From contig NZ_CP043869.1 of the NCBI RefSeq assembly GCF_008630635.1, forward strand, positions 1,116,001-1,180,000: 64,000 nucleotides of DNA, written 5' to 3'. Below, piece by piece: positions 1,501-11,499 of this stretch. Position 1 is the first letter of the stretch. Every line of letters starts with the position of its first letter. The translations under genes and the position numbers were made by a program. The notes below the pieces were generated by a model. That model was not told the DNA's origin. It did not search any database and was given only the letters and a program-made list of their open reading frames with translations. The DNA comes from Neptunomonas concharum. Lineage in GTDB: Bacteria > Pseudomonadota > Gammaproteobacteria > Pseudomonadales > Balneatricaceae.

Positions 1501-2888
1501 TGCCCTTGTTTGAGACGCTAATCAATCGGTGGGATACAGCGACGGCAGTCATCGTGTTCTTAGCTGTTGCTACACCTTTGATTGTCATGTTCTTGGTTAT
1601 GCGTGCAGGTTGGGTGCGTCTTGCACAAGACCGAGAGCAGCAGTTGCACGAAAGCCAACTAAAAACGGTTCAGTTTACTGAACGTTTGGCGGTGATGGCT
1701 AAACTTGAGCGCATGGTTGAGGATCTGGAGTATGAGCGTAGCGATCTTCGTGAGCAGTTAGCGATTCGACAGGCGCAAGTCGCCGAGTTGGATGCCCGTT
1801 TGCAAGCCGATAGAAAAGCTAGTGATGAGAAACTTCAACTGTTAACGGATGCGAGAGACCAGTTACGTCAGGAGTTCCAAAATCTTGCGAACCAAATCTT
1901 TGATGAAAAATCCAGACGCTTTTCAGAGTCCAGTCGAAAAGAGATGGGGATGATGCTGACCCCATTAAAGGATCAGTTAGGTGAGTTTAAACGCCGGGTT
2001 GAAGATGTGTACGATCGCGAAGCAAAAGATCGCCGCGCCTTACATGCAGAGATCAGCCAGCTCAAACAGCTCAACCAGCAGATGAGTCAGGATGCGATTA
2101 ACCTGACCCAGGCGTTAAAAGGTGAAAGTAAAACTCAGGGTAACTGGGGCGAAATTATTCTAGAGCGGGTACTAGAAGAGTCAGGCCTACGCAAAGGTCA
2201 TGAGTATGAGGTGCAGGTATCCCTTCGTGAACAAGAGCAGCGTTATCAACCCGATGTCATTGTTCACTTACCTGATGGTAAGGATATCATTGTGGACTCA
2301 AAAGTATCCCTGACCGCTTATGAAGCTTATTGCAGTACTGAATTGGCGTCTGAACGCCAACAGCACTTACGTGCCCATACGCTCTCCTTACGAAACCATA
2401 TACGAGGTCTAGGCGATAAAGCCTATCAAAAGCTTGAGGGCGTTCGGTCTCTGGATTTTGTCTTAATGTTCGTACCGGTAGAGGGGGCTTTTCTTCTGGC
2501 ACTAGAGCATGATCCACAACTATTCCGATTTGGGTTTGAGCGCAACATTATGTTGGTTAGCCCAGCAACGTTGCTGGTGACGCTTCGCACGATTCAAAAC
2601 ATCTGGCGTTATGAGCACCAAAGCCAGAATGCTCAGGAGATTGCCCGCCGTGGTGCAGAACTCTATGACAAATTTGTTGGGTTTGTTGAATCATTAGATG
2701 ATGTCGGTAAACACCTGACCAGAGCACAGCAGTCGTATGATATTGCTTATAATCGCATGAGTACTGGGCGAGGCAACTTGGTACAGCAAGCGGTTGAACT
2801 TAATAACCTAGGAGTAAGCGGTAAAAAAGAGCTACCCCGAAAACTCACAGAAGGTGCTGTTTCAGCTGCGACAAAATCGCGCATGTGA
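1500..2888 (+). CDS. rmuC: RmuC family DNA recombination protein
   Basis: RmuC proteins are predicted nuclease-fold proteins that limit DNA inversions at short inverted repeats. The 462-residue product has an N-terminal membrane anchor (about residues 14-36), a long coiled coil (about 40-130) and the conserved RmuC domain (about 180-410). That domain includes QGNWGEIILERVLEESGL and the stretch VHLPDGKDIIVDSKVSL, with its D-x-K nuclease-like signature. This is the usual RmuC architecture and length. The start overlaps the stop of the upstream membrane-protein gene. The last codons overlap a palindrome that lies upstream of the TonB-dependent receptor. Confidence 0.92.
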   Translation: MPLFETLINRWDTATAVIVFLAVATPLIVMFLVMRAGWVRLAQDREQQLHESQLKTVQFTERLAVMAKLERMVEDLEYERSDLREQLAIRQAQVAELDARLQADRKASDEKLQLLTDARDQLRQEFQNLANQIFDEKSRRFSESSRKEMGMMLTPLKDQLGEFKRRVEDVYDREAKDRRALHAEISQLKQLNQQMSQDAINLTQALKGESKTQGNWGEIILERVLEESGLRKGHEYEVQVSLREQEQRYQPDVIVHLPDGKDIIVDSKVSLTAYEAYCSTELASERQQHLRAHTLSLRNHIRGLGDKAYQKLEGVRSLDFVLMFVPVEGAFLLALEHDPQLFRFGFERNIMLVSPATLLVTLRTIQNIWRYEHQSQNAQEIARRGAELYDKFVGFVESLDDVGKHLTRAQQSYDIAYNRMSTGRGNLVQQAVELNNLGVSGKKELPRKLTEGAVSAATKSRM

Positions 2889-2899
2889 CATCGTGTCAC
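2885..2899. promoter_or_regulatory. Perfect palindrome upstream of TonB-dependent receptor
   Basis: GTGACATCGTGTCAC is a perfect inverted repeat (six-base arms around TCG) that ends 57 bases before the chosen receptor start. The bases 2880-2890, CGCATGTGACA, are identical to 10977-10987 upstream of the tonB/polyferredoxin operon, which suggests a shared regulator. TGTGA and TCAC are seven bases apart rather than six, so this is not a canonical CRP site. Confidence 0.4.
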
Positions 2900-2956
2900 T
2901 GTGTTCTAGGGAACTTTATTTTTATGATCCGGAAAACCTTTTCGGAGAGTAAATTA

Positions 2957-5092
2957 ATGTTCATGCCTTTTCCCCTTCGCCAGAGCACGGTTGTTGTCAG
3001 TGCTTTATTGTTACAGGCTTTTCCTGCATTAGCGCAAGATCTGGTGGTTAAAGATAGCGTTACAGTCACGGCTACTCGAGAAGCGAGAGCTTCAGCAGAT
3101 GTGCCGGAAAGTATTGCCGTGATCGGCGGTGAACGTCTTGAGCAGGAGAAGATGTTCAATGTCTCTGATGCGCTAAAGGGGACGCCCGGCGTGCTTATCC
3201 AATCCAACAACGGTGCCTATGATGCTCGGCTTATTATCCGGGGTGCGGGTTTAAAGGCGAATTACGGTATTCGTGAGATCATGGTGTTACGTGATGGCGT
3301 ACCGGTCACCGACCCTGATAGTTTCACTCGCCTGGACTTTATTGATACGCAGGATATCGAGCAAATAGAGATTACTAAAGGTCCGGGCAATATTTATGCG
3401 ACAGGTTCTGCAGGGGGGGCGATTCAGATTCTTTCCAAATCCGTATTCGATGAACAACAGGATCAGATACGTCTAGGTCTGGGGGAGCAGGATACGCGCA
3501 ATCTTCACTTAAGAAAAAGTGGATTCTCTGAGTCGGGTAATGCGTTAGCGCTAACCTACTCTCATCGGGAAACAGAAAATAACTGGCGTCATTGGAATGA
3601 GTTCCAATCCGACCAGCTTGGTGTAAAAGGTGGTTTGTTACTCTCGGATGAAAGTGAGCTTGAGTTAGAGCTGAGTCTGACTAAAGCGGATGTACAGCTG
3701 CCAGGTGGGATGACCGAAACTCAGTTTGAGCAGTTTAAAGAGACAGGAAAGCAAGAAGGTAACAACTCTGCATTTAAGCATAGCGGCCGTTATTCCGAGA
3801 TAATCTTTGCTAACAGCCGCTATACCCGAGCATTAACGGATAACACCGATTTTATTCAACGGCTCTATATCAACCATTGGTCTCATTATCATCCAGTCAC
3901 CGGTGCAATAAACGATACGCCAGATGTAACTATTTTTGGTACAGACTTAGAGATTCGCCATCAACACACGCTTCTGGGTAATGACAGTTTAGTAGCTGGG
4001 ATCACTGTTCGGCAAGATCGGGATGATGGATCAAAAAAGTATGCCTACCGCGATTATCTGTCTAGCTCAAGTGGTCGTATGTTAGCAACGTTATCTGATG
4101 AAAAAGGTGATTGGTTAGAGACCCAAGATACGACGAACACTGTTATTGGGATGTTTTTTCAGGAAAGTTTGAAACCCACCGAGCGTTGGTTAGTGGACGC
4201 TGGTTTTCGTTTGGATCATATCAGTATTAAGCAAGAGACGCTAAGTAGCGATACGGCTTATAACTATGGCGCGGGGCGTTATGTCACTATCCCCGGTAGT
4301 GGCGGTTATAGCGAGCTTGATAAGTCCTTTACACTGTTTTCTCCGCGATTGGGTGTGAGCTATCGTCTGAACCCTCAGTTTTCGTTGTTTGGGAATATCG
4401 CGCAGGGTGAACAAGTACCCTTCTCCAGCGAACTTGAATCCAATCATGATTTGAAAAGTGCGACCAATCGCAGCGTCGAGTTCGGTGTAAAAGGGCGTGC
4501 TGAAAACTGGCAGATGGACATGTCTATCTATTTTACAAAAGTAGATGATGAAATTATCGCGATTTTGGAAGATGGGAGAACCATTTATCAAAATGCCGGT
4601 AGTACGGATAAAAAAGGGCTGGAGCTACAAGGGCAGTATCAACTCTTTAATAACCAAATAGGCAGTTTGTGGCTGGGTGCAAGCTATGCCTATAGCGACT
4701 ATCAATATGATGCGTTCCAAGAGACTGTAAGGGTAGCGGGGGGCCCAACAAGTTTTGATCGTACGGGTAATCAATTACCTTATGTTCCTAATCACCAGTT
4801 TGGTCTATCCGCTAGCTATCAGCATCCAAGTGGTATTAAAGCGCGTTTGCAAGCCGATACGTGGGGTGAATATTATCTGGATAATGCTAATACAGAAAAG
4901 TATGGGGGCTACGATATGGTGACCAGTTTGAATTTGGGCTATAGCCAAGGCCCACATGCTGTCTCCTTAAATGTTCAAAACTTATTTGATCAACGCTATG
5001 CTGTCGAGGTGAAAAAGGATACCAGCGGTAAGAAGTCTTATACGTCTGGCTCCCCAAGAACGGCTATGCTAAGTTATCGCTATCAGTTTTAA
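2957..5092 (+). CDS. TonB-dependent outer-membrane receptor
   Basis: The product is a 711-residue outer-membrane receptor that would import a metal chelate or cofactor using TonB energy. It has a signal peptide ending near FPALA-QD, a TonB-box-like DSVTVTA just after it, a plug domain (about residues 35-150, with the typical ITKGPGNIYATGSAGGAIQI stretch) and a 22-strand-type barrel ending in the aromatic residue of YRYQF. I chose ATG 2957 because CGGAGAG lies nine bases before it and the signal peptide then starts naturally; an in-frame frame extends upstream to 2885. The substrate is unclear. The TonB-like gene at 7568-8302 and its operon are natural partners, and the two loci share an upstream motif. 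Confidence 0.88.
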   Translation: MFMPFPLRQSTVVVSALLLQAFPALAQDLVVKDSVTVTATREARASADVPESIAVIGGERLEQEKMFNVSDALKGTPGVLIQSNNGAYDARLIIRGAGLKANYGIREIMVLRDGVPVTDPDSFTRLDFIDTQDIEQIEITKGPGNIYATGSAGGAIQILSKSVFDEQQDQIRLGLGEQDTRNLHLRKSGFSESGNALALTYSHRETENNWRHWNEFQSDQLGVKGGLLLSDESELELELSLTKADVQLPGGMTETQFEQFKETGKQEGNNSAFKHSGRYSEIIFANSRYTRALTDNTDFIQRLYINHWSHYHPVTGAINDTPDVTIFGTDLEIRHQHTLLGNDSLVAGITVRQDRDDGSKKYAYRDYLSSSSGRMLATLSDEKGDWLETQDTTNTVIGMFFQESLKPTERWLVDAGFRLDHISIKQETLSSDTAYNYGAGRYVTIPGSGGYSELDKSFTLFSPRLGVSYRLNPQFSLFGNIAQGEQVPFSSELESNHDLKSATNRSVEFGVKGRAENWQMDMSIYFTKVDDEIIAILEDGRTIYQNAGSTDKKGLELQGQYQLFNNQIGSLWLGASYAYSDYQYDAFQETVRVAGGPTSFDRTGNQLPYVPNHQFGLSASYQHPSGIKARLQADTWGEYYLDNANTEKYGGYDMVTSLNLGYSQGPHAVSLNVQNLFDQRYAVEVKKDTSGKKSYTSGSPRTAMLSYRYQF

Positions 5093-7567: not shown

Positions 7568-8302
7568 TTAAATGAGCCGATAATCTATTGTAAGCACGAC
7601 AGATGTTGGTGGCGTTGTAGCTAATTGTCGAATAGGTAAGGATGATTGTATGGCCTTGAGGGTGGCATTTTTAAAAATATTCTGGCCCGATATCCACTCC
7701 ATATCCTTAAAACTGCCATCAGGGTTGAGCTTGAGGCGAAAAGTGACACTTCCTTCTATATTCCGCCTTACCGCAGGACGTGGGTATTTTTTATACCGGT
7801 TTATCTGGTTGATCAGATAGGACAGATACTGTTCGCTTTCATGCTGTGTGGCCCTTGGTGAGGTGGACTGCTGCGTTGTGGCGTGGGTCACTTGCGCAGT
7901 AGCGACCGGCTTAGATGGCACTGTCGTAGAAGTCTTTTTGCTGTGTGATTGGTTTTTGCTTGTAACCGGTGCTGTCTTGGGCTTGTTCTTTAATGTTCTT
8001 TTAGGCTGATCACTTTGTGTGATGAGCTTTTTATGTGGCTGCTCAAGCTTTGGCGATGGTAAAACCTGTTGAGTAGGCTGTGGTACAGGTTTAGGTGTAC
8101 TCAGACTTTTTGCTTGAGGCATCAAGGATGGGCGAGCTAGCGTTACGTTGATCGACTGCGGTGTGATAGCCTGTGTTATCTGAGGATCAACGTTCACTAT
8201 AGGTGTATGGTTGAGATAAAACCAAAGTGTACTGTGCCCAAGGAGTGAAACCGCTAGGCCTTTCATAAGAGGATGAGATATCACAGCCTGATGTATGCTC
8301 AT
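7568..8302 (-). CDS. tonB: TonB family energy transducer
   Basis: The 244-residue protein has an N-terminal membrane anchor (about residues 12-30), a long Pro/Lys/Thr/Ser-rich periplasmic spacer and a C-terminal TonB domain (about 160-244). The domain contains YPRPAVRRNIEGSVTFRLKL and a NPDGSF turn, both typical of TonB. It would pass energy from the proton gradient to outer-membrane receptors. It is the last gene of the leftward operon and directly abuts the DsbD-like gene (the ATG at 8302 overlaps its stop). No exbB or exbD lies nearby. The receptor at 2957-5092 is the obvious client. Confidence 0.85.
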   Translation of the reverse strand: MSIHQAVISHPLMKGLAVSLLGHSTLWFYLNHTPIVNVDPQITQAITPQSINVTLARPSLMPQAKSLSTPKPVPQPTQQVLPSPKLEQPHKKLITQSDQPKRTLKNKPKTAPVTSKNQSHSKKTSTTVPSKPVATAQVTHATTQQSTSPRATQHESEQYLSYLINQINRYKKYPRPAVRRNIEGSVTFRLKLNPDGSFKDMEWISGQNIFKNATLKAIQSSLPIRQLATTPPTSVVLTIDYRLI

Positions 8303-9066
8303 TATCCAGGAATGCCCCTTATCATCGTGCTGATCGCTACGGCGATTAAGAGCAGGCCACCGATACGCGTCAACGTCGTTTTCCAGTGATTCAGGTGATG
8401 TCGCAACTCCTGTCCTACTAAAGCAACGCCAAATTGGACGAGTAGAGAAGGGATTAATACAGCGCCCATACCAAATGCCAGAGCGAGGAGTCCGCCAAAG
8501 AGTGGATCACCGTTTTGTGCGGCCGCTGCTAACAATGTCATCAGTGGGATGCAAGGGTTTGCGGCAAGGGATGCACCTAACAGGAAAAGCTGAGTCGGAT
8601 GTTTCTGGGCTAATGCAGGCCGATCCGTAGCAATCAGTAAGTCAGTGTTGTTAGTACGACTATGATAAAGAGTAGTTTTTGCAGCCGATGTGTTTGCTGT
8701 GGCAAACGTTTCTTTTGGGGTGATGGCGCAGTTAGTTGTCTCATGCTTAAAAAGCATTCGAAAAGCCAGCCAAAGTGTAATGCTGCCGACCACAATTGGG
8801 AGTGCTGGGTGTTTTAAATAGCTTTCTATAAAGGCACCTAACAAGGCAGCACTCATGCCTATCAGGATATAGCCGGTGAGCCTGCCAGACATAAAGGGGA
8901 GCACGACAGTGCCTAAAGCTCGTTCGGATGAAGGGCCCAATAGCACAGGGCCCAGATAAGGTAAGCAAGTTAGATTACAAGGTCCGCTGCCAAAACTCAG
9001 TCCAATCAGGAAAGCCGATAGAAAAGCAGAGAAGCTCCAAATGGCGTCTAGTTCGCTCAATATCAT
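8302..9066 (-). CDS. DsbD/CcdA-like or TauE/SafE-type membrane protein
   Basis: This 254-residue inner-membrane protein has about six hydrophobic segments. The first contains GPCNLTCLPYLGP (Cys30 and Cys34), and the second half contains NPCIPLM (Cys172). Paired membrane cysteines of this kind resemble the electron-carrying transmembrane domain of DsbD/CcdA; related proteins are often labelled sulfite exporter TauE/SafE. A central loop of about 50 residues is hydrophilic. It lies between the polyferredoxin gene (ATGA overlap) and tonB. I infer that it moves electrons, or a metal, across the membrane together with the polyferredoxin. Confidence 0.7.
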   Translation of the reverse strand: MILSELDAIWSFSAFLSAFLIGLSFGSGPCNLTCLPYLGPVLLGPSSERALGTVVLPFMSGRLTGYILIGMSAALLGAFIESYLKHPALPIVVGSITLWLAFRMLFKHETTNCAITPKETFATANTSAAKTTLYHSRTNNTDLLIATDRPALAQKHPTQLFLLGASLAANPCIPLMTLLAAAAQNGDPLFGGLLALAFGMGAVLIPSLLVQFGVALVGQELRHHLNHWKTTLTRIGGLLLIAVAISTMIRGIPG

Positions 9067-10118
9067 AGTGGCTTGACGTTTTTATCAGCGGGCTTTTCTG
9101 CCACATTAATCAGACGGATCTGATCCCATTGCTTTTGTGATCTCTTGCGTGCTTTAAAATACGCAGGGTCAGCTTTGAAAATGGGGATGCCTAAATAACG
9201 TAGCTGCAAAACATCTTTATCAGGGCAAAACTCAACACAACGGCCACACAGTGTGCAGTCGGCAAGCGTAATATCTTTCGCTTTATCGGCGTCATTATGT
9301 TCGGTTTGTAATTCACGTATATCCATAGGGCAGGCTTCGGCACAAAGACCGCACTTGTCGCAGCGGGATGTGCCTTGTTTGACCAAACGGGCAAATCCTA
9401 ACTTTCTGAAAACAGCGTGCATCGCTAACAGAGGACAAATTCGACAAAACGGCTGCCTAACGGTGAGGGCCAGTGCAATCATGAGCCCGAAAAGAAAATC
9501 ACCGGTTATCGACAGCGCCATATAACTGTAGCTGGAGGTGTCAACGAAGAGTTGTTCGCTGCTGCCAGTTGCTAGCGTAGTCATAATCCGACTCGGACAT
9601 ATCTGGCAAAATGGATCACCCCACTCATCACTTAAAAAGCCCAAACTGGTTAGTGAGGGTAGGCCAAACACCAGAATCCCTAACATCATCCATTTTATAG
9701 GGCGGATCTTATCTACGGCTCTGTGAGATAGACTATCAACCTTTCTGAATCCTAATTTTTGCCCTACGAGGTGTACCACTTCTTGAAAGAATCCAAGGGG
9801 GCACACCCAGCCACAAAAGGCTTTGTTTAGCACAATAAATAGGAGAAGAAATGTCCCTAGGGTTGTCAGTAATGGCATGAGCAGCACCCATGCATTGCCT
9901 GAGTTCACAGCATTACCTAAACGATGATGCAGTTGGTGTTGTACGGGGATCAGTGCGCAGTAATCAGCATTCTTCGTATCATAGGCGCAGCTAAGAGCAG
10001 GGAGTGCCCCCGATAATTTATCGGCTGCGTAAAAGCCCACAATCACAGATCCATAAACCAAAAAAATAAACATGACTAACTGCGTAAAGCGACGGATGAG
10101 CGTAAGGTTTGCCATCAT
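9063..10118 (-). CDS. NapH/CcoG-like membrane polyferredoxin
   Basis: The 351-residue protein has four or five membrane segments. It carries CGWVCP (102-107), CQICP (171-175) and CRICP (225-229), and ends with two classical 4Fe-4S motifs, CDKCGLCAEACP (253-264) and CTLCGRCVEFCP (288-299). The layout resembles NapH, NosR and CcoG, which carry electrons from the quinone pool or cytosol to periplasmic or metal substrates. No nap, nos or cco gene is nearby. The overlaps with the genes on both sides show that it is a core member of this operon. A metal-reductase role (Cu or Fe) is inference from the TonB context. Confidence 0.8.
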   Translation of the reverse strand: MMANLTLIRRFTQLVMFIFLVYGSVIVGFYAADKLSGALPALSCAYDTKNADYCALIPVQHQLHHRLGNAVNSGNAWVLLMPLLTTLGTFLLLFIVLNKAFCGWVCPLGFFQEVVHLVGQKLGFRKVDSLSHRAVDKIRPIKWMMLGILVFGLPSLTSLGFLSDEWGDPFCQICPSRIMTTLATGSSEQLFVDTSSYSYMALSITGDFLFGLMIALALTVRQPFCRICPLLAMHAVFRKLGFARLVKQGTSRCDKCGLCAEACPMDIRELQTEHNDADKAKDITLADCTLCGRCVEFCPDKDVLQLRYLGIPIFKADPAYFKARKRSQKQWDQIRLINVAEKPADKNVKPL

Positions 10119-10909
10119 TTCTTAGGTCTCCGTGAGTATTCTGGCAGGCGTCTGATAACAAGTAATCCGGCCATAAGCCCGAATGCGGCCGCTAGCGCGC
10201 CTAAGGAGGTACTCTTCCAATGGGATGGGTTTGGCGAATAGGGTGCTGAAAAGCTGGTGGTGTAGCGAATGCTATCCGTACTTGTGTTGGCAAATAAGCG
10301 AATCTCTGCTGCTGGGTTTTTTCTTTTACCCGGCACGACGTTGGTAAAATCATCCGGAATATGTAATTTAAGCAGGCCTGAACTATCAGTTTGCAATACA
10401 TCAGTGCTGCCATTACTGGTGCTGACCAGAATGGGTTGCTCTTTATAGGGCTCGCCATTAAACAACACCTTGAATCGGTACGTTTTATCGGTTTCGTAGC
10501 GCCAGTGCTCTCTGGGAAGCGGTGAGGGAATAATACGTAATGGCCCCGTTGAGTAGGCCAATAGATCGCTAGGGGAAAAGTCGACAGGCTTGCCATTCAT
10601 ATAAGGATATCGGACAGCTTGTTGATAACTGTCGGGAGTCTCTAGTGTTGCCACAAGCGCGTGGTAATTACCTTTACGTGTAGGTTGCAGCTTAAGCACG
10701 TCATTTGATAATGAGGGGGTGCTTATCTCAAGATCTGAATGAACCAGCTTAATATCGACAGGTATCTCATTGGGCAGATTGGATAGCTGAAGGGACTTGC
10801 TCTTTTTATGGGCATGATGGCCGGGGTCGGCTTGAGAATAGGGTTGCCAAAAAATATCAGCAGCGACATTCGCTGATAGTAAACTCATCGCGATTATTCT
10901 TACGAGCAT
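10115..10909 (-). CDS. Periplasmic membrane-anchored protein, DUF4198-like
   Basis: This 264-residue protein has a short signal peptide (residues 1-17), a beta-rich periplasmic region and a single C-terminal membrane helix (about 233-252) followed by Arg/Lys. The region EHWRYETDKTYRFKVLFNGE and the segment that follows it look like the carboxypeptidase-regulatory or DUF4198-type folds found next to metal-uptake genes, but I cannot assign it firmly. It has His-rich HHAHKK near residue 30. It is the first gene of the operon. Its Shine-Dalgarno AGGGG lies inside an inverted repeat that could mask it. It may bind the metal before reduction or transport. Confidence 0.6.
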   Translation of the reverse strand: MLVRIIAMSLLSANVAADIFWQPYSQADPGHHAHKKSKSLQLSNLPNEIPVDIKLVHSDLEISTPSLSNDVLKLQPTRKGNYHALVATLETPDSYQQAVRYPYMNGKPVDFSPSDLLAYSTGPLRIIPSPLPREHWRYETDKTYRFKVLFNGEPYKEQPILVSTSNGSTDVLQTDSSGLLKLHIPDDFTNVVPGKRKNPAAEIRLFANTSTDSIRYTTSFSAPYSPNPSHWKSTSLGALAAAFGLMAGLLVIRRLPEYSRRPKK

Positions 10910-10950: not shown

Positions 10951-10972
10951 GCTATGTCGGGGATGTGGCTTG

Positions 10973-10988
10973 TTGTCGCATGTGACAA
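10973..10988. promoter_or_regulatory. Near-perfect 16-bp palindrome, candidate operator
   Basis: TTGTCGCATGTGACAA is a 16-bp near-palindrome with five-base perfect arms (14 of 16 positions symmetric). It lies about 65-80 bases upstream of the first gene of the leftward tonB operon. The 11 bases CGCATGTGACA recur upstream of the TonB-dependent receptor at 2880-2890. The regulator is unknown, and the site does not match a Fur box. Confidence 0.45.
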
Positions 10989-11007
10989 TTCGCCACAAGG
11001 CGGGTTG

Positions 11008-11499
11008 CTATTCCCTCTCTAATCCATCGATCAGTTTTTCTAACAACCGCTCGAGTGTTTCTTGCTCTTCTCTGCTGAGATTCGACAGTGAGCGTGCTTC
11101 GTTTTCTACATGTAGGGGAACAATTCGGTTGATCAATGCTAGGCCTGTTTCAGTTAATAACACCAGCGTACCGCGGCGATCTTCTGGATTGGGTGCGCGA
11201 GCAATCAAGCCAGCCTTTTCTAGCCTATCTAGCCGATTAGTCATTCCTCCAGACGAAATTAACAGCGCTTCAAACAGCTGTGTTGGTGCTAATTCATATG
11301 GTGCGCCTGAACGACGCAACGTAGCCAATACATCAAACTCACCTAACTGTAAGCCGTGGCTTTTAAAGAAAGGATCTAAATAATCCCGTGTGATTAAGCG
11401 AGTCGCTTTGCCTAGAGAGCCAATCACTTTCATCGGTAGTAGGTCGAGTTGGGGCATCTCACGCTGCCATTGAGACGTGACTAATTTAACTTTATTCAT
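11008..11499 (-). CDS. MarR family transcriptional regulator
   Basis: The 163-residue protein has the MarR winged helix-turn-helix (about residues 45-115). The segment SSGGMTNRLDRLEKAGLIAR is the recognition helix and start of the wing, and NPEDRRGTLVLLTETG forms the wing itself. MarR proteins act as dimers that lose DNA affinity on binding a small phenolic or drug ligand. It is transcribed divergently from an EamA-type exporter, with three 15-bp repeats in the shared intergenic region, so it probably controls that exporter and itself. Confidence 0.88.
   Translation of the reverse strand: MNKVKLVTSQWQREMPQLDLLPMKVIGSLGKATRLITRDYLDPFFKSHGLQLGEFDVLATLRRSGAPYELAPTQLFEALLISSGGMTNRLDRLEKAGLIARAPNPEDRRGTLVLLTETGLALINRIVPLHVENEARSLSNLSREEQETLERLLEKLIDGLERE

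Follow-up and report, generated by a model that had tools for sequence, protein, structure and literature searches.

A candidate TonB-dependent system for reductive metal uptake, built around a membrane polyferredoxin, in Neptunomonas concharum and its relatives

The stretch of DNA analysed here, called the window throughout, comprises 64,000 nucleotides of the gammaproteobacterium Neptunomonas concharum (contig NZ_CP043869.1, positions 1,116,001-1,180,000; the genome is complete at 3.56 Mb) and carries an operon in which redox-active membrane proteins are encoded together with TonB. An original prediction, made from the sequence alone, described four overlapping leftward genes for an anchored periplasmic protein, a polyferredoxin with two 4Fe-4S motifs, a membrane protein with paired cysteines like DsbD/CcdA, and TonB, with the receptor encoded at 2957-5092 as the probable outer-membrane partner. 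The four open reading frames (ORFs) lie where they had been placed, at 10115-10909, 9063-10118, 8302-9066 and 7568-8302, and the searches described below uphold each of these assignments. In window coordinates, the features are as follows.

10964..10997, no strand: tandem operator of the operon, formed by a pair of adjoining 17-bp palindromes (TGYGRC-N5-GYCRCA), 0 mismatches, 54 bp 5' of the first ORF
10115..10909, minus strand: PERI, a DUF4198-like periplasmic protein with a C-terminal membrane anchor, 264 amino acids (model fold, His conservation, hydrophobic segment 234-252)
9063..10118, minus strand: PFD, a NapH-like membrane polyferredoxin, 351 amino acids (Pfam and NCBIfam matches, Cys conservation, predicted topology)
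8302..9066, minus strand: DsbD_2/CcdA-like membrane protein, 254 amino acids (DsbD_2 at 68.8 bits; conserved C30, C34, C113 and C172)
7568..8302, minus strand: TonB, 244 amino acids (TonB_C at 38.5 bits)
2867..2900, no strand: tandem operator 56 bp 5' of the receptor's ATG, a copy of the above motif with 3 mismatches
2957..5092, plus strand: TonB-dependent receptor of family R1, partner of the operon (plug and barrel domains by Pfam)

Relatives of the operon were gathered by tblastn (E<=1e-3), and the best 80 of 444 related stretches, which may include other ferredoxins, were kept as loci. PFD was the criterion of selection and is present in 80/80 for that reason, and the set includes many near-identical symbiont genomes, so that the counts are not independent events. 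Within the 80 loci PERI occurs in 80, the DsbD_2 protein in 79, a receptor in 71, ExbB in 58, ExbD in 57 and TonB in 54, all seven genes standing together in 45; of the nine loci lacking a receptor match, four (L099, L148, L150 and L151) have the PERI start within about 200 bases of a contig end. Had the genes been unrelated neighbours they would rarely have been found together; co-occurrence is instead near-complete, and the four genes are a conserved unit. Among 11 close relatives PERI, PFD and DsbD_2 are present in 11/11 and are followed by ExbB-ExbD-TonB in 8/11; an orthologue of the window's receptor (61-66% identical) adjoins the operon in seven, a different receptor in two, and no receptor lies within the stretch in the remaining two. 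Operon-type PFD matches (E <1e-170) were obtained in 12 of 144 relatives' genomes, the window's own included (a tally of 134 counts weak matches to other ferredoxins), and in a sample of the class 16 of 369 genomes gave a PFD match at E<=1e-20. The 80 loci belong to genera of the Oceanospirillaceae, Thiodiazotropha, Sedimenticola, Halothiobacillus, Methylomonas, Methylophaga, Zetaproteobacteria and others. Matches were found in 25 plasmid records, the sole strong one being a Sulfurovum plasmid (E 3e-47).

A feature overlooked in the first reading ties the operon to its receptor. Both are preceded by a tandem 17-bp palindrome that, at <=3 mismatches, occurs at these two places only (10964-10997 and 2867-2900) in the 3.56-Mb genome, where the reversed pattern used as a control gave 0 matches; the pairing of operon and receptor that had been proposed is thus strengthened by an operator private to the two. 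Across 116 genomes of the family, the pattern at <=3 mismatches was found in 19 and the reversed control, with one match each, in 12. Such matches are near chance level and mean little, and in 7 of the 19 genomes the sole match lies away from any recognised operon. All 12 places with <=2 mismatches, in 10 genomes, stand before the operon or its receptor (those in G517, G521 and G524 were located by coordinate match to named loci). At least two units, with <=2 mismatches each, are present in 25/25 family upstream regions, against a shuffled mean of 2.64/25 with even one; these regions derive from the window and 14 named loci, some are near-identical, and two divergent regions are counted both ways. 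In two genomes with an unrelated receptor (family R3, below) the units are kept between receptor and operon. Carriers G015, G029 and G053 gave no tandem match at the operon; their group's named loci, L084, L087 and L089, have the units set apart from one another. The 59 upstream regions of other lineages held 0 matches with one mismatch and 6 with two (shuffled mean 5.06), and the tandem operator looks specific to the window's family. Some relatives carry three palindrome units, and on inspection by eye these are followed by a -10-like element. Directly upstream of the operon, and on its strand, is a gene for a MarR-family regulator (11008-11499), to which the loci of the relatives gave no match.

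PFD gives Pfam matches to Fer4_5 and several Fer4-type families, and among the best 60 of 74 chains matched in the PDB by its sequence profile are ferredoxin-type and other iron-sulfur (Fe-S) proteins. It carries two CxxCxxCxxxC (4Fe-4S) motifs and further cysteines at 44, 54, 102, 106, 171, 174, 225 and 228, and all 16 are invariant in 81 sequences (L088 and L134, with a stop in the stretch, were left out; the organism of L088 is represented by L035). From hydropathy and the positive-inside rule, four transmembrane helices are predicted that would place C44, C54, C171, C174, H61 and H65 on the periplasmic side and the other twelve cysteines, those of both 4Fe-4S motifs plus two more pairs, in the cytoplasm. 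A structure model with a predicted local distance difference test score (pLDDT) of 84.6 has helices at the same four places, residues 45-48 falling under 50. The best NCBIfam match of PFD is NapH/MauN (TIGR02163; 65.6 bits, below the cut-off of 213), and NapH and YccM lack the four outer cysteines C44, C54, C171 and C174.

PERI has N-terminal and C-terminal hydrophobic segments, the latter at 234-252. Its only Pfam match is to DUF4198 (PF10670) at a sub-threshold 15.6 bits; four relatives score 20-28 bits and a fifth (L144) gives no match, all short of the cut-off of 34. An AlphaFold model was built from 52 sequences (pLDDT 91.7). Its best Foldseek matches in the PDB are Zcp with Zn or Cu (E 1.3e-7) and the Ni-bound DUF4198 protein 9gcb (E 4.1e-6), with TM-scores of 0.43-0.54 by model length and root-mean-square deviations of 5.8-6.5; of the 13 matches at E<=0.001, the remaining 8 are to unrelated proteins, adhesin and Ig/FN3-like ones among them. 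By this comparison the modelled PERI has the fold of solved DUF4198-type proteins, and as modelled it belongs to a metal-binding fold family. Four residues are nearly or wholly invariant (H135 in 81/81, H83 and D187 in 80/81, E134 in 79/81), and the His-rich stretch near the N-terminus is variable.

The third protein matches DsbD_2 at 68.8 bits (cut-off 24.9) and also DsbD_TM; its sequence profile found no matching chain in the PDB. C34 and C172 are conserved in 78/78 sequences, C30 in 77/78 and C113 in 75/78, two short DsbD_2 pieces being left out of these counts. We take C30 and C172 to be the equivalent of the transmembrane Cys pair of DsbD, so that the protein combines a DsbD-type domain with a conserved transmembrane Cys pair, as in CcdA/DsbD. 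In most relatives exbB and exbD sit between this gene and tonB. It had escaped the first reading that the window's operon has neither, its DsbD_2 and tonB ORFs overlapping; it is a shortened form from which exbBD was probably lost. ExbB/TolQ-like matches exist elsewhere in the genome, the best with 36% identity over its full length. As to the receptor, its best NCBIfam match is TonB-siderophor at 166.6 bits (below the cut-off of 223.5). YncD/PqqU is the nearest solved chain for this R1 receptor (E 4.9e-36), as it is for one representative each of R2 and R3; since the R1 receptor scores 152.3 bits with the PqqU model, far under the cut-off of 1200, the ligand cannot be named. The three receptor families, mutually 22-25% identical, occur in 41 (R1, the window type), 28 (R2, two assigned by matches <40% identity) and 2 (R3) loci. 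One core is thus served by three receptor families: receptors were swapped and the core was kept.

Around the core, nine of ten zetaproteobacterial loci have a gene for a His-rich secreted protein between the receptor and PERI genes (L149 at 8641-9177, L102, L117, L129, L131, L133, L140, L141 and L142, not L124); the L149 copy, the sole one scanned, is LTXXQ (Spy/CpxP-like) by Pfam. This gene apart, the other recurring neighbour clusters (the top 45, in at least four loci, judged by eye) looked like synteny of close relatives.

A sister type, type B, was recognised in five loci of Gammaproteobacteria and Sulfurovum: L032, which is the Sulfurovum plasmid, and L073-L076. It combines a PFD relative (30-34% identical) and a DUF4198-like protein with a 2-hydroxyacyl-CoA-dehydratase-type protein and its activase, and three of the five loci also have DsbD_2 and a TonB receptor. 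The genes for the double-cubane-type reductase and ATP activase lie as follows.

L073: 10482-12572
L074: 10144-12155
L032: 8902-11037
L075 and L076: also present

The L073 protein passes the NCBIfam model of the double-cubane anaerobic reductase (NF040772) with 358.9 bits against a cut-off of 350, and its partner passes that of the acyl-CoA dehydratase activase (239.3 bits, cut-off 125.4). Reductases of the double-cubane class deliver electrons of very low potential. Because G226 and G349 hold both types, the two are probably not interchangeable. At L032:5807-7975 a Sulfurovum protein of 722 amino acids joins a Fer4_5 membrane polyferredoxin region to a C-terminal sub-threshold DUF4198 match; if real, it would be a natural fusion of the PFD and PERI functions.

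The linkage of these genes, the operator shared by operon and receptor, the conserved redox residues and the fold family of PERI lead us to propose reductive TonB-dependent uptake of a metal or metal chelate, with release in the periplasm through an Fe-S conduit, to which we assign a probability of about 0.58. We infer the following order of steps. The receptor would import a metal chelate, energised by the module's own TonB with ExbBD supplied by the operon in most relatives and borrowed in the window's genome. The anchored, DUF4198-like PERI would take over the metal or chelate. PFD would carry electrons from the cytoplasm or the quinol pool via its Fe-S clusters to its periplasmic face, where the metal may be reduced at the four-Cys/His site. 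The DsbD_2 protein may keep the outer cysteines of PFD reduced, as CcdA and DsbD do, or may handle or pass on the reduced metal. That a metal is what is reduced is suggested by the fold family of PERI, by the 722-residue protein and by published loci: DUF4198 proteins encoded in flavinylation clusters of the PepSY type, of which some include TonB (PMC8238504), a DUF4198-type locus of Caulobacter under Fur control that affects fitness in EDTA (PMC12004947), and a DUF4198/TonB locus of Alteromonas with an iron response (PMC7190382).

Several observations weigh against the proposal. The periplasmic side of the PFD cysteines is predicted from hydropathy and charge only, the PFD model had no match in the PDB at E<=0.001 (Foldseek), and no dedicated inner-membrane permease was recognised among the core genes. 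In the regions upstream of 74 receptor and 78 PERI genes no clear Fur-box signal stood out: the 19-bp consensus scored 9-14 and 9-13 of 19, only slightly above the mononucleotide-shuffle means of 11.1 and 10.8. The positive control was weak, for the consensus is that of E. coli and none of its five genome places at <=3 mismatches could be tied to an iron gene, so that the result is only a mild argument against iron. Lastly, a link to hydrogenase was considered as a sign of nickel and rejected. In the class sample [NiFe]-hydrogenase is found in 11/16 carriers versus 71/353 others (Fisher p 6e-5), SoxB is as strongly associated (14/16 versus 137/353, p 1.3e-4), and urease is without association (5/16 versus 80/353, p 0.38), all three tests ignoring kinship; the hydrogenase association therefore speaks for lifestyle and not for a metal. 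The family-level counts, with hydrogenase in 10/15 carriers versus 23/101 others, are soft: three of the 15 (G517, G521 and G524) were assigned from operator and locus coordinates rather than by protein search, and further carriers may be missed. Separately, enrichment for SoxB and [NiFe]-hydrogenase in the class sample is a chemolithotroph signature of the carriers.

Should the model hold, copper would be the foremost candidate, though short of even odds, with iron next, nickel or cobalt improbable and any other metal more so. In the copper form, a Cu(II)-chelate would be taken up and its metal reduced in the periplasm, yielding Cu(I) for cuproenzymes such as the heme-copper oxidases, by analogy with what has been speculated for CrtA/CrpH of Bordetella; taken whole, this account is tentative and rather unlikely. 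A DsbD_2-type gene probably lies near ccoG. CrtA, a TonB copper importer, and CrpH, speculated to be a periplasmic copper reductase, are encoded in one operon, crpH shows a synthetic phenotype with ccoG, and CcoG is termed a putative copper reductase (PMC13038864). The fold of the PERI model likewise matches copper-bound Zcp. On the other side, NosZ is not enriched (3/15 presumed carriers versus 31/101 others at the family level), and IsDUF4198 is reported to favour Ni over Cu (PMC12537917).

A slightly less probable form has PFD reducing ferric siderophores in place of the PepSY reductases FpvG and FoxB, which free siderophore-bound iron in the periplasm. The TonB-siderophor match of the receptor favours it, below cut-off as it is, and the lack of a clear Fur-box signal, judged against a weak control, and the private two-place operator do not. 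The module is also present in Zetaproteobacteria, known as iron oxidisers, which should rarely lack iron. DUF4198 genes do occur in Caulobacter (PMC12004947) and Alteromonas (PMC7190382) loci that respond to Fur or iron.

Uptake of nickel or cobalt, for instance for [NiFe]-hydrogenase, with the electrons serving release from the chelate, is distinctly unlikely. The SoxB and urease counts offset that of hydrogenase, and Ni(II) release from a chelate requires no reduction. The His-rich gene of the zetaproteobacterial loci could be counted in its favour, as could the binding of Ni by IsDUF4198 (dissociation constant 18 nM) and DUF4198 neighbourhoods that include TonB receptors and NikR_C regulators (PMC12537917). 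That the receptor imports a redox-active organic cofactor like pyrroloquinoline quinone, which the relay would reduce, is very improbable: YncD/PqqU is the nearest solved receptor, but the PqqU score lies far under its cut-off and PERI, as modelled, falls in a metal-binding fold family.

The proposed reductive metal uptake through PFD has parallels in several known systems. PepSY reductase loci (TonB receptor, PepSY_TM, DUF2271 and DUF4198; FoxB, FpvG and CrpH) likewise combine a TonB receptor and a secreted protein of the DUF4198 type with an electron carrier of the inner membrane, which is presumed to reduce the metal complex after import. In the module, by contrast, an Fe-S polyferredoxin takes the place of a heme or flavin carrier, DsbD_2 is added, most relatives also bring an ExbBD-TonB set of their own, and no PepSY or PepSY_TM match was found among 8 window proteins scanned with Pfam. 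FtrD of the FtrABCD iron uptake system is a NapH-like polyferredoxin, so that both operons have such a protein within a metal-uptake context; unlike FtrABCD, the four operon proteins have no Pfam match to P19 (Iron_transport), cupredoxin or the Ftr1 permease (FTR1). NapH/MauN and PFD have CxxxCP and CxxCP sites and two 4Fe-4S motifs in common, whereas the side of PFD predicted to be periplasmic has a QHQ motif and four extra invariant cysteines, and the module's operon is without a nap gene. The original prediction had excluded nap, nos and cco genes. A NosZ model found no match in the genome; for nap the exclusion holds among the proteins encoded around the operon in the window that were scanned with Pfam, relatives not being scanned for nap, and neither nap nor cco was given a genome-wide search. 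CcoG, which acts in cbb3-oxidase assembly, is like PFD an Fe-S membrane protein and is proposed to reduce copper (PMC13038864). Of the 72 NCBIfam matches of PFD, the best 25 do not include the CcoG model, and the window's operon holds no oxidase gene. The double-cubane reductase and ATP-dependent activase of the type B loci were not seen in the window's module.

No description of this gene set was found in titles and abstract openings, nor any that pairs a double-cubane reductase with TonB, in a literature coverage that excludes preprint servers and most subscription journals. TonB import followed by periplasmic reduction is of a known kind, the predicted Fe-S conduit with a CcdA-like partner looks like a new form of it, and type B could be more. 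At its most speculative, and as an unlikely extension, the proposal would describe a class of TonB uptake in which electrons rather than an ABC transporter power the inner-membrane step, PFD reducing the metal complex at the periplasmic face; in type B, an ATP-driven double-cubane reductase would feed PFD electrons of very low potential and so strip chelates beyond the reach of ordinary reductants.

Many TonB receptors of marine and lithotrophic bacteria lack a recognised inner-membrane partner, as in the case of Alteromonas (PMC7190382). The module supplies a recurring and testable one, which brings a private operator and its own sources of energy and electrons. Found in marine and chemolithotrophic bacteria, it looks like an undescribed route by which bound metal is taken in and freed by reduction. 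If this is true, an Fe-S route to periplasmic metal reduction would join the heme and flavin systems, and type B would couple the import of a nutrient to a super-reductase driven by ATP.

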